From positions 1 through 33,238 of the forward strand of contig NZ_JAMXRU010000025.1 in NCBI RefSeq assembly GCF_024124745.1: 33,238 nt of DNA, read 5' to 3'. Shown here piece after piece: positions 12,576 to 28,990 of the stretch. The notes under the pieces are model-generated. The model was not told the DNA's origin, made no database searches, and saw only the letters and a list, made by a program, of their open reading frames with translations. Both the position numbers and the translations under genes were made by a program. Every line of letters starts with the position of its first letter. The stretch's first letter is position 1. The DNA comes from Aeromicrobium sp. CnD17-E (GTDB lineage: Bacteria > Actinomycetota > Actinomycetes > Propionibacteriales > Nocardioidaceae).

Positions 12576-12662
12576 GGTTTACCACGGTCCCGTGGTAAAC
12601 CCCGTCCCCCCGAGGCAAAATTCCCCCGGGAGGACGACGTTCACCACGGGACCGTGGTAAAC
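12576..12662. repeat. Dispersed palindromic element, solo copy (P-H-P' form)
   Basis: 87-bp imperfect palindrome between the convergent ends of the Lrp gene and the aminotransferase gene. P: 12-bp perfect arms GGTTTACCACGG/CCGTGGTAAACC around TC (12576-12601). Middle: an imperfect C/G-rich hairpin (12602-12638). P': GTTCACCACGG/CCGTGGTAAAC around GA (12639-12662, one mismatch). Its right half, reverse-complemented, matches the repeats framing the AbiEi-like gene at 27084-28338. It could also terminate both converging transcripts. Confidence 0.85.
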
Positions 12663-12664
12663 CG

Positions 12665-25819: not shown

Positions 25820-27013
25820 GTGGCTAAGGCGAAGTTCGAGCGGACCAAGCCGCACATGAACATCGGCACCATCGGTCACATCGACCACGGTAAGACGACG
25901 CTCACGGCGGCGATCACCAAGGTGCTGCACGACAAGTACCCCGACCTGAACGAGGCCTCGGCCTTCGACCAGATCGACAAGGCTCCCGAGGAGCGTCAGC
26001 GCGGCATCACGATCTCGATCGCGCACGTGGAGTACCAGACGGAGAACCGTCACTACGCCCACGTCGACTGCCCCGGCCACGCCGACTACGTGAAGAACAT
26101 GATCACGGGTGCGGCGCAGATGGACGGCGCGATCCTCGTGGTCGCCGCCACCGACGGCCCCATGCCGCAGACGCGTGAGCACGTCCTCCTGGCCCGCCAG
26201 GTCGGCGTCCCGGCCATGGTCGTCGCGCTCAACAAGTGCGACATGGTCGACGACGAGGAGATCCTGGAGCTCGTCGAGCTCGAGGTCCGTGAGCTGCTCT
26301 CCGACCAGGAGTTCGACGGCGACAACGTCCCCGTCGTGAAGGTCGCGGCCCACCCCGCGCTGCAGGGTGACGCCAAGTGGGGCGAGTCGATCCTCGAGCT
26401 CATGAACGCGGTCGACGAGTACATCCCGCTGCCCCCGCGTGAGACGGACAAGCCGTTCCTCATGCCGGTCGAGGACGTCTTCACGATCACCGGTCGTGGC
26501 ACCGTCATCACCGGTCGTATCGAGCGCGGCATCATCAAGGTCAACGAGACCGTCGACATCGTCGGCATCCGTGAGACCAAGCAGACCACGACGGTCACCG
26601 GCATCGAGATGTTCCGCAAGCTCCTCGACGAGGGCCAGGCGGGCGAGAACGTCGGCCTCCTGCTCCGTGGTACGAAGCGCGAGGACGTCGAGCGCGGCAT
26701 GGTCATCATCGCCCCCGGCTCGACCACCCCGCACACGGAGTTCGAGGGCCAGGTCTACATCCTGTCCAAGGAGGAGGGTGGCCGTCACACGCCGTTCTTC
26801 AACAACTACCGTCCGCAGTTCTACTTCCGGACCACGGACGTCACCGGCGTCGTCACGCTGCCCGAGGGCACCGAGATGGTCATGCCCGGCGACAACACCG
26901 AGATGAGCGTCCAGCTCATCCAGCCGATCGCCATGGAGGAGGGCCTGCGCTTCGCCATCCGCGAGGGCGGCCGTACCGTCGGCGCCGGCCGTGTCACCAA
27001 GATCAACAAGTGA
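25820..27013 (+). CDS. tuf: Elongation factor Tu
   Basis: GTPase that delivers aminoacyl-tRNA, 397 residues, standard length. G1 GHIDHGKTT (19-27), G2 [16 protein letters not shown]3 [21 protein letters not shown]4 NKCD; domains II and III are complete, with [13 protein letters not shown] and [12 protein letters not shown] at the end. The start is GTG at 25820 with AGGAGG 7-8 nt upstream. The 108-nt gap from fusA may hold a separate weak promoter (TAAGGT at 25728-25733, no good -35). It ends in an intrinsic terminator with a UUCG loop. Confidence 0.98.
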
Positions 27014-27041
27014 TCTGACGACACACCAGCACTGCTGAGCG

Positions 27042-27073
27042 AAGCCCCTCGGACCTTCGGGTCCGAGGGGCTT
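27042..27073 (+). terminator. Terminator of the str operon
   Basis: Perfect 14-bp stem AAGCCCCTCGGACC/GGTCCGAGGGGCTT (27042-27055 and 27060-27073) closed by the very stable TTCG tetraloop, 28 nt after the tuf stop. Confidence 0.92.
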
Positions 27074-27083
27074 CGTCGTGTTC

Positions 27084-27156
27084 TGCGGTTTACCACGGGA
27101 CCGTGGTGAACGTCGTCCTCCCGCGGCATGCTTGCCGCGGGAGGACGACCTTTGCC
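27084..27156 (+). repeat. Dispersed palindromic element, left copy (P-H), framing the AbiEi-like gene
   Basis: P: GGTTTACCACGG (27087-27098), GA, CCGTGGTGAAC (27101-27111), one mismatch. H: perfect 17-bp arms GTCGTCCTCCCGCGGCA/TGCCGCGGGAGGACGAC (27112-27128, 27133-27149), loop TGCT. The 73-bp unit is the inverted counterpart of 28266-28338 with 66 of 73 positions identical. It starts 10 nt after the tuf terminator stem. Confidence 0.92.
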
Positions 27157-27266
27157 CAGGGAAGCGTGTCCACAGGCCTGCCTCGGACCAGCGCCTCGCC
27201 CCGCGTTCGTGCACAGGCCGGCGTCGGGTGCTGTCCTGACGTGGCCAGGTCGACGAGTGTCGAACC

Positions 27267-28238
27267 ATGCTCGACGACCTCGTGACCATCGCGACCGCTC
27301 AGGGTGGGTACCTGTTCCGGCACCAGCTGAACGCTTCAGGTGTCTCCGACGCCCAGATCCGGCAGGCCTGCGCGAGCCGTCTCCTCGCACGGGTGCGGCA
27401 CGGCACCTACGTCCCCTACGACCTCTGGCAGCTCGCGGACGCTGTCGAGAGGCATGCCATCGTCGCCAAGGCGGTGCTCGACAAGCTCGGACCGACCGTC
27501 GCCGCGTCCCACGTGACGGCCGCCGTCCTCCACGGGCTCGACGTCTGGAACGTGGACCTCGAACTCGTCCACCTGACGCGCGTCGACGGGGGAGGCGGGC
27601 GACGGGAGGCCGGTGTGGTGTTCCACGAGAACCGGCTCGAGGACGCCGACGTCGTGGAGGTCGACGGCCGGCTGGTCACGGCTCCGACGCGCACCGTGCT
27701 CGAGTGCGCCTGCACGGTCGGCATCGAGGAGGGCATGGTGATCGCGTCGAGCGGACTCCGCTCGGCCGTCGTCGACGTCGAGCTCGAGCCGCGTCTGGAG
27801 GAGATCGGGCACTGGCCGGGTGCCCGGCACGCTCGGCTGTCGTTGCGGATGAGCGACGGGCGCGCCGAGACGGTGGGCGAGGTGCGCTCGTTGTACCTCA
27901 TGTGGCGCTTCGACCTGCCGCGCCCCGAGCTGCAGCGCACGCTGGTCCTGAGGGACGGTCGCTCGGCGCGGCTCGACTTCCTGTGGGAGGAGAGTCGGCA
28001 CTGCGGCGAGTTCGACGGGATGGTCAAGCTCGGCAGGCTCAACCCGTTCGGGGACGGCGACGTGCGCGCGCTCGTCCAGGAGAAGCAGCGCGAGGACGCC
28101 GTGAGGGACAGGCGGTGGGGCATGTCGAGGTGGGGATGGGTCGACCTGGGTCCGGCCCGACGCGCGGCGACCGCGCGCATGATCCTCGAGGGTCTCGCGC
28201 AGTCGAGACGGCTCTACGTGCCTCTCGCCACCCGCTGA
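27267..28238 (+). CDS. Orphan AbiEi-family protein with PD-(D/E)xK-like C-terminal part
   Basis: 323 residues. The N-terminal half matches the actinobacterial AbiEi-like proteins: a winged-helix start ([21 protein letters not shown], read as [10 protein letters not shown] then [11 protein letters not shown]), [28 protein letters not shown] and [15 protein letters not shown]. The C-terminal part (about 195-300) has the layout of the DUF559/Vsr-like nuclease fold: [28 protein letters not shown] (D237), GEFDGMVK (E248, K254) and a late RWGWVDLG. AbiEi proteins are antitoxins of type IV systems, but no AbiEii nucleotidyltransferase toxin gene is present. Function unknown: a solo DNA-binding or DNA-cutting protein is possible. 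The ATG at 27267 lacks a strong ribosome-binding site. Framed by inverted palindromic repeats and alien to the ribosomal neighbourhood. Confidence 0.8.
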
Positions 28239-28265
28239 GCGACGGCGCGAGCGCCCACTTCCCGC

Positions 28266-28338
28266 GGCAACGGTCGTCGTCCCGCGGGAAGTTTGCCGCG
28301 GGCGGACGACGTTTACCACGGTCCCGTGGTAAACCGCA
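28266..28338 (-). repeat. Dispersed palindromic element, right copy (H-P), framing the AbiEi-like gene
   Basis: P: GTTTACCACGG (28311-28321), TC, CCGTGGTAAAC (28324-28334), perfect. H is degenerate: 13 of 15 arm positions match. Extra pairings CTTCCCGCGG/CCGCGGGAAG (28258-28267, 28282-28291) and CCCGCGGCAA/TTGCCGCGGG (28261-28270, 28293-28302) offer alternative folds. It begins 28 nt after the AbiEi-like stop. Confidence 0.92.
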
Positions 28339-28358
28339 GGTCCGCGCCGGGGGCCGAT

Positions 28359-28388
28359 TTGTGTTCCGGCGGGGGAGTCTGTCAGACT
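28359..28388 (+). promoter_or_regulatory. Candidate promoter of the S10 operon
   Basis: -35 TTGTGT (28359-28364), 18-nt spacer, -10-like CAGACT (28383-28388). It lies directly after the palindromic repeat. Predicted start near 28395. Confidence 0.5.
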
Positions 28389-28394
28389 AGTGCG

Positions 28395-28681
28395 GTTGCT
28401 CCGGCCGGATCGCTGGGGCGTGCCCGCCCGGAACTCACGCCGGGGTCGACGAGCGCGCTGCACGGTGTCCGGCCTGACTGCTGGAAGCGACGTGACGCGG
28501 ACTCCCTGGAGGCCGCGGCCCGCGACCGGAAGTCCAACCACCCAACTCCAGAAGGTTCGCGCACGCTCGTGGTCACCACCGCGACACGCCCGACCTCGGG
28601 GGGCGGAGGGGAGCGATCCCCTCCAGGGAGAACAAGCCCCAGGGGCACACCAAGCTGACGAAGAGTAAGGACGACCAGAGC
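28395..28681 (+). other. Long 5' leader of the S10 operon, no gene
   Basis: About 285 nt before rpsJ without a credible ORF. It contains GTGGT/ACCAC (28569-28579) and a stable hairpin GGAGGGGA/TCCCCTCC with the GNRA loop GCGA (28605-28624), followed by GCCCCAGGGGC-type self-complementary sequence near 28636-28646. The length is compatible with regulation by a ribosomal protein (L4 in E. coli), but I do not recognise a known leader class. Confidence 0.5.
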
Positions 28682-28990
28682 ATGGCGGGACAGAAGATCC
28701 GTATCCGGCTCAAGGCCTATGACCACGAGGTGATCGACACCTCGGCGCGCAAGATCGTCGACACGGTCACGCGCACCGGAGCCTCCGTGGCCGGCCCCGT
28801 GCCCCTGCCGACCGAGAAGAACGTGTTCTGCGTGATCCGGTCGCCGCACAAGTACAAGGACAGCCGCGAGCACTTCGAGATGCGTACGCACAAGCGGCTC
28901 ATCGACATCATCGACCCGACGCCGAAGACCGTCGACTCGCTCATGCGACTCGACCTGCCGGCCGGTGTCGACATCGAGATCAAGCTCTGA
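28682..28990 (+). CDS. rpsJ: 30S ribosomal protein S10
   Basis: 102 residues, standard. It binds 16S rRNA in the 30S head and doubles as NusE in transcription antitermination. Recognised by [39 protein letters not shown] and the [20 protein letters not shown] loop. First gene of the S10 operon, 17 nt before rplC. Confidence 0.98.

Follow-up and report, generated by a model that had tools for sequence, protein, structure and literature searches.

REP-type palindromes are common bacterial repeats whose spread is tied to one class of enzyme, and the RAYTs associated with them are Y1/HUH enzymes. To our knowledge, a layout of scattered palindromes around a gene is known only from an enzyme kind quite different from the protein considered here. 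Insertion sequence families and their MITEs comprise an autonomous copy and miniatures with common ends. Two publications describe RAYT genes as flanked by REPs, with the repeats mostly between tandem or convergent ORFs and downstream of genes (PMC3733652), and REPs as singlets and inverted doublets, with RAYTs being single-copy and distinctive and excision junctions of REPINs being counted by deep sequencing (PMC3116915). CGTC-tagged REPs are dispersed palindromes which, in PMC3733652, are stated to lack a dedicated transposase; the five phyla from which it reports them do not include Actinobacteria. In the type IV toxin-antitoxin system AbiE, the abiE promoter contains inverted repeats of up to 23 bp to which AbiEi binds (PMC3985639).

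We analysed a 33-kb contig of Aeromicrobium sp. CnD17-E (the window, 33,238 nt over the whole stretch), which belongs to an assembly of 3.57 Mb in 219 contigs. This genome is designated G000, and the other G numbers denote further genomes of the genus. Between tuf and rpsJ, the window carries a gene for a 323-aa AbiEi-like protein, P0001, framed by two arms that are composed of a palindrome (P), a hairpin (H) and a half-site (p'):

27083 to 27164, plus strand: left framing arm P-H-p', inverted repeat I1, 89% complementary to 28258-28339
27088 to 27111, no strand: left P palindrome with the 24-mer core GTTTACCACGGNNCCGTGGTAAAC, a pattern match with 1 mismatch
27113 to 27148, plus strand: left H hairpin, the middle 36 bp, placed from the sequence and the 26-36-26 geometry
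27150 to 27161, plus strand: left p' half-site CTTTGCCCAGGG, exactly 62 bp from P
27267 to 28238, plus strand: AbiEi-like gene, one ORF of 323 aa, with a winged-helix (AbiEi_4-like) N-terminus and conserved E205, D237, E248-F-D250-G-x-x-K254 and E272-K
28258 to 28339, minus strand: right framing arm p'-H-P, inverted repeat I1
28261 to 28272, minus strand: right p' half-site CGTTGCCGCGGG, 62 bp from P
28274 to 28309, minus strand: right H hairpin, the middle 36 bp, placed from the sequence
28311 to 28334, no strand: right P palindrome, 0 mismatches to the 24-mer
12576 to 12663, no strand: dispersed gene-less P-H-P element of 88 bp between two convergent genes, with P starts 62 bp apart

The 73-bp inverted pair that the original prediction had placed around the AbiEi-like gene is real, the arms being 89% complementary over 82 nt with a 73-bp match at 90% identity. 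The proposed order, P-H-gene-H-P, was right for P and for H, which lies between P and the gene on each side, but the ends are better given as P-H-p': p' is a diverged half-P that starts exactly 62 bp away, at the position taken by the second P in P-H-P elements. Only one gene lies between the window arms, with no second gene and no AbiEii nucleotidyltransferase toxin gene among them, and the arm positions across the genus fit one gene only. Among known RNAs, the best Rfam match was sbcD RNA, rejected at 38.4 bits against a cut-off of 40; this sub-threshold match (window 27037-27176, minus strand) covers the tuf hairpin together with the left arm and probably reflects hairpin likeness.

PADLOC AbiEi profiles matched the N-terminal half of P0001 (E = 4.1e-19). 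The Pfam domain AbiEi_4 was matched (E <= 0.1) in 37 of 39 relatives and fell below the cut-off in P0001. E205, Q223, D237, E248-F-D250-G-x-x-K254 and E272-K-x-R were invariant in 39 sequences, and the C-terminal residues of P0001 were nearly invariant in the 80 loci of a wider search, the motif of which included positions 247-255. We take these conserved C-terminal residues to be a PD-(D/E)XK-type active site, as judged from general knowledge of the motif. Pfam gave no nuclease domain in P0001 and, among the 39 relatives, one weak REase match (E = 0.079) with none above the cut-off; PDB relatives were discarded at a best E of 0.38. The Y1/HUH (RAYT-type) transposase PF01797 was found in 0 of 49 genus genomes, with 5 of 14 control genomes positive.

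The profile match could mean that the locus is a defence or toxin-antitoxin locus of the AbiE kind, its palindromes acting as recombination or regulatory borders. It resembles AbiE in the winged-helix N-terminus, and AbiEi is itself a binder of inverted repeats. We find this reading scarcely credible, as the unit has no partner gene, whereas in AbiE the gene for the AbiEii toxin forms a bicistronic pair with that for AbiEi (PMC3985639), the protein has an extra nuclease-like C-terminus, and the dispersal of the palindromes would be left unexplained.

Allowing at most 3 mismatches, a search of the G000 assembly gave 21 P sites against 0 for the reversed control, and the repeat is therefore distinct from chance. 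The gene-less copy predicted 15 kb from the gene exists, as the 88-bp P-H-P element at 12576-12663, but the copies are not limited to three: a search of the rest of the genome placed the 21 P sites in 11 loci, comprising 7 compact P-H-P elements, 1 solo P-H (C66) and 3 opened pairs. The opened pairs are the gene unit, a 258-bp gene-less pair (C164) and a pair around another gene (C74). G000 also carries one-sided P-H-p' copies resembling the gene ends. One chained element, P-H-P-H-p', has three sites in a row (L012, G000:C146:8473-8605).

Scattered arm matches were also found in genomes of other genera. Nocardioides sp. TF02-7 has at least 85 at about 44 places, two framing ones included (40 of 41 first-look candidates scored); Jiangella ureilytica has at least 49, with 16 pairs in inverted orientation no more than 300 bp apart, always plus before minus (40 of 57 scored); and Blastococcus sp. 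TML/M2B has at least 12 at 8 places, two of which are the frame (40 of 84 scored). Within the genus, GTTTAC-N12-GTAAAC without mismatches is present in 19 of 49 genomes, the reversed control giving one hit in one genome. The original prediction had named as a counter-case palindromes conserved in species lacking the gene; this did not hold, since the pattern was present in 1 of 13 genomes without a homologue vs 18 of 36 with one (Fisher p = 0.007). G009 has one imperfect P and none by this pattern. G005 has three elements and no homologue, and G007 has three TTTACCACGG-type elements and another palindrome at the examined one of its two homologue units, showing that elements can outlive or lack a matching gene.

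The setting of the elements was determined from GC3-heuristic gene calls at 27 loci, of which 24 had both neighbours called (L012 is probably miscalled): 12 lay between convergent genes, 12 between tandem genes and 0 between divergent genes, usually close behind a stop codon. Often the element starts directly after the stop codon as TGACGGTTTACC (L150, L151, L152, L141, L146); where elements begin in this way, the gene upstream may owe its stop codon to the extension of the palindrome.

Strong hairpins, often a few bp past stop codons and half of them between convergent genes, could be bidirectional terminators or mRNA-stability hairpins unconnected with the protein. We regard this as very improbable. 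No T-run-type intrinsic terminator made by the repeats was scored in 26990-28700, where the sole terminator match (28339-28355) adjoins the right arm and is not formed by its hairpins; sister species lack the hairpins at the corresponding sites; and they frame a gene family and are scarcer in genomes without the gene. A REP/RAYT-like explanation would also allow for termination as a side effect. A role as operators, with the AbiEi-like protein a repressor that binds the palindromes at its own gene and at scattered sites, fits the AbiEi-type N-terminus and the binding of promoter repeats by AbiEi. It is nevertheless unlikely: the repeats also lie downstream of the gene, the scattered ones are convergent or tandem and never divergent by the heuristic gene calls, elements are gained and lost among sister genomes, an operator has no need of an 88-bp double-site hairpin, and nuclease-like residues are conserved. 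The palindromes beside the AbiEi-like gene may also act as its operators.

The elements of Aeromicrobium and of a Nocardioides follow one frame, P(26)-H(36)-P(26), which makes 88 bp with 62 bp from P to P. All 7 compact elements of G000 had a P-to-P distance of 62 bp, as did 10 of 10 in G017 and 3 of 3 in G007; in TF02-7 it was 62 bp at 9 of 10 loci and 63 bp at the tenth. This spacing is kept despite different sequences (GGTTTACCACGG... vs GATTCATCAAGGTATG...). Among the 67 of 132 arms with a recognisable P start, the best offset of the inner half-site p' was 62 in 30.3 (ties weighted) and 61, the next best, in 6.8 (binomial 3.5e-30 with 40 offsets). From end to end the elements are nearly palindromic, with positions i and 89-i pairing in 74-86%, and each of three that were folded formed one long hairpin. 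A single dyad length for all framing arms was rejected, lengths being mixed with 28 the most frequent (13 of 79), partly because the outer limits of the arms vary. None of 30 P-H-P elements had GTAG/CTAC within the terminal 10 nt at either end (7 of 30 had it internally), and CGTC/GACG was at the ends of 0 of 30.

Comparison of sister genomes revealed gain and loss. G007, 99.4% identical to G000 over 1.5 kb beside tuf, has three of the eleven G000 loci in common; elsewhere it shows a clean empty site (C143), a half-P relic (C160) or sequence without P. C143 provides one clean junction, compatible by reading with a target duplication of 0-4 bp. In G039, a single P stands at a place where G000 and G007 carry P-H-P, the difference being 62 bp. 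G005 and its sister G017 are 98.9% identical beside tuf, and of 16 scattered G017 elements 3 are common to G005, 1 is decayed (L147) and 12 are absent, one of which leaves a P-like relic (L145). The whole 1226-bp gene unit is also present in G017 and absent in G005. In G017, one long open frame has its stop 6 bp ahead of the unit, that of a convergent frame follows 1 bp behind it, and G005 has the two TGA triplets one base apart at this site. Only four G017/G005 sites have five bases or fewer between the matched flanks, so clean junctions are few, and no definite target duplication emerged. At the site of the G017 unit, G009 has a different composite hairpin of ~70 bp (GAGATCTGTAGCGTTTCCCACC...GGTGGGAAACGCTACACATCTC; L277, G009:C10:16150-16630), which may belong to another family of palindromes occupying this site.

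The empty sites expected in relatives were thus found for individual elements and for one gene unit but not at tuf-rpsJ, where a clean empty site was sought and the gap proved to be filled by other DNA. The filling is a reading frame in G007 and G039, which from its sequence we take for a MarR-type regulator, and apparently non-coding DNA in G019.

At C74 of G000 (L305, G000:C74:1500-2900), an inverted P-H...H-P pair frames an unrelated gene, whose product, judged by its sequence, we take for a hexapeptide-repeat, carbonic-anhydrase-like protein. This gene is 85% identical to, and reversed relative to, its copies in G007, G039 and G019 (L237, L303, L304), none of which has P there, and its flanks match G007 at 96-97%. 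The segment therefore appears to have been inverted, perhaps imported, between elements, and two elements came to surround the gene in G000. Framing alone consequently proves no partnership. The AbiEi-like gene as a chance neighbour, a possibility suggested by C74, was rejected on the framing of its homologues in 27 of 30 genus loci.

These findings also bear on an ordinary insertion sequence with a PD-(D/E)XK-type transposase, in which P-H-p'-gene-p'-H-P would be the autonomous copy and P-H-P its MITE, and pairs could carry passengers. Inverted ends and gene-less miniatures would be expected of it, and it could accommodate the unit that is whole in G017 and absent in G005, the clean empty site C143 and the C74 gene inverted or imported between two elements. 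The distribution of the gene family, set out below, speaks against it.

Homologues of P0001 (E <= 1e-10) are present in 36 of 49 genus genomes. Framing was scored at 30 genus loci by aligning the 450 bp upstream to the reverse complement of the 450 bp downstream. Scores of 56-149 were obtained at 27 of the 30, compared with 18-31 for shuffles and 18-27 for 30 tuf loci used as a control. The three exceptions are L066, which is cut by a contig end and whose public copy, L161, scores 71; L084, which scores 42; and L060, which scores 22 and looks unframed. The framing palindromes vary widely (GTTTACCACGG, GTTTACCAGGAGAACC, GTTTACCCGGCCGG, GTTTACGTGGGG, GTTTCCCCGGTTAACC, AGTTACGGAGT, CACCCTTTGGGTTGGG and others). 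The unit is reversed relative to its neighbours in G002 (L084) as compared with G025, G041 and G046 (L062, L063, L068). A general inversion of the unit was dismissed, as high cross scores reflected contig orientation and, after re-orientation, only G002 was reversed.

GTDB was scanned with one motif, GEFDG[LMR]xKY, and 78 of the best 80 loci were testable. At a score of at least 50, 52 of these 78 were framed vs 0 of 124 neighbouring ORFs (maximum 37), and the predicted occurrence of the repeats near AbiEi-like genes is thus borne out in both sets. Among loci not named Aeromicrobium, 37 of 63 were framed, at least one of the 63 (L162) being the genus genome G039. Within the best 80, the numbers of framed loci by group were Nocardioides (13 of 16), Marmoricola (3 of 3), Pseudonocardia (6 of 8), Blastococcus (2 of 7), Geodermatophilus (1 of 2), Jiangella (1 of 1), Jiangellaceae (1 of 1), Phytoactinopolyspora (1 of 1), Rhodococcus (1 of 11) and Nocardia (0 of 1). 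The 26 unframed loci belong above all to Rhodococcus and Nocardia, whose homologues (L170-L230) keep the conserved residues and are mostly unframed (1 of 12 framed); they may represent a lineage that lost its repeats. A tree built from the 80 loci together with P0001 gave framing as the reconstructed state at the midpoint root, with 11 changes vs at least 17 in 300 label shuffles. P0004 and P0093, from short metagenomic contigs, contain pieces 98% identical to P0001 fused to unrelated domains, and probably represent assembly joins or other insertion places.

The gene occupies one locus common to ten genomes, framed on one side only in G047 and unframed in G035, and the palindromes have changed among the genomes that share it. 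Two framed units each were examined in three genomes, G000 (C137 and C7), G022 (= Root495) and HQM.2, and the palindromes differ between the units. Relatives of the protein on plasmids are few (5 of 72,556 records, all with <60% identity). For an ordinary insertion sequence, the differing palindromes of the two-unit genomes, the gene kept at a common locus in ten genomes, the scarcity of plasmid relatives and the fixed 62-bp register of the long composite palindromes at the ends are all adverse. A difference from IS/MITE families is that amplified gene-bearing copies were not seen in the genomes examined. We consider such an insertion sequence a possible explanation, though a rather improbable one.

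The scattered copies resemble the gene ends of their own genome. For 59 non-framing copies from 11 genomes (a set from which G034, G035, G039, G041, G046 and part of G033 are missing), identity to the framing P of the same genome averaged 21.4 of 24 positions vs 18.1 when permuted (p = 5e-5). The own genome ranked best or tied for 43 of the 59, and 16 were nearer the framing P of another genome; own-genome ranks were 0 of 8 in G000, 0 of 1 in G010 and 0 of 2 in G032. For G000, the cause is the perfect palindrome of G017, whose score is higher by one letter. The left arm was matched best by its own right arm in 63 of 66 units (13 rows were dropped as genus copies, L161 included, although its copy L066 lies outside the set). 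Similarity between palindromes tracked protein identity across 27 genus units (Mantel r = 0.54, p = 5e-4), a correlation that shared ancestry alone could explain.

The layout predicted as REP/RAYT-like with a different protein is thus supported at the level of layout, by framing, dispersal and empty sites. As with REPs and RAYTs, the gene is framed by inverted repeat copies, the repeats are dispersed, inverted doublets included, and elements are gained and lost. In the three genomes of which two framed units were examined, each repeat type was seen with one gene. The two differently framed units of G000 and the locus shared by ten genomes agree with RAYTs being single-copy and distinctive. Unlike in REP/RAYT systems, the protein is AbiEi-like with a PD-(D/E)XK-like end, a Y1/HUH enzyme was found in none of the 49 genus genomes, P measures 26 nt within a fixed 26-36-26 frame, and the GTAG end tag is absent from the 30 elements. 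The elements differ from CGTC-tagged REPs in lacking CGTC/GACG ends and in having a candidate partner gene. A defining feature of each of REP/RAYT systems, AbiE toxin-antitoxin systems and intrinsic terminators is therefore missing here. No literature linking AbiEi-type or PD-(D/E)XK proteins with dispersed palindromes was found in a search whose coverage mostly excluded subscription journals and preprints. Our results suggest a repeat-spreading system of a new kind in soil actinobacteria.

We judge it reasonably likely that the locus is a REP/RAYT-like repeat-and-partner system in which the partner is an AbiEi-type winged-helix protein with a PD-(D/E)XK-like C-terminus that may bind, cut and copy or spread the palindromes. 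Against it speak the 26 unframed GTDB loci, elements that outlive or lack a gene, the 16 scattered copies nearer the framing P of another genome, the scarcity of clean junctions, the framed unrelated gene at C74, and similarities of protein and palindrome that also follow common descent. The winged helix would read P, and two subunits would engage two P sites 62 bp apart, or both arms of an extruded 88-nt hairpin; we propose that the fixed 62-bp spacing reflects about six helical turns between two engaged P sites. The nuclease region would nick or cut at the palindrome, and excision with re-insertion, or repair copying, would spread or replace elements, mostly just downstream of genes. Mismatched elements would be lost. 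If cutting depends on recognition, as we propose, the gene ends and the scattered copies would change sequence together. The gene unit itself would move rarely and would often be inherited at one locus, like RAYT genes, without jumping to many copies.

More broadly, we think it on balance probable that a widespread actinobacterial protein family annotated as "type IV AbiEi antitoxins" consists of repeat-associated nucleases, each recognising its own palindrome, acting on pairs of sites 62 bp apart and spreading or maintaining the palindrome in the genome without an HUH enzyme, and that they represent a second, independent invention of the REP/RAYT kind. Owing to the fixed 26-36-26 frame, short DNA substrates would suffice for a direct test of the mechanism. 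If this explanation is true, the annotation of proteins called AbiEi antitoxins would be corrected, the family would be a source of palindrome-specific nucleases whose targets could be deduced from the sequences flanking their own genes, and a lifestyle of the REP/RAYT type would have evolved more than once.
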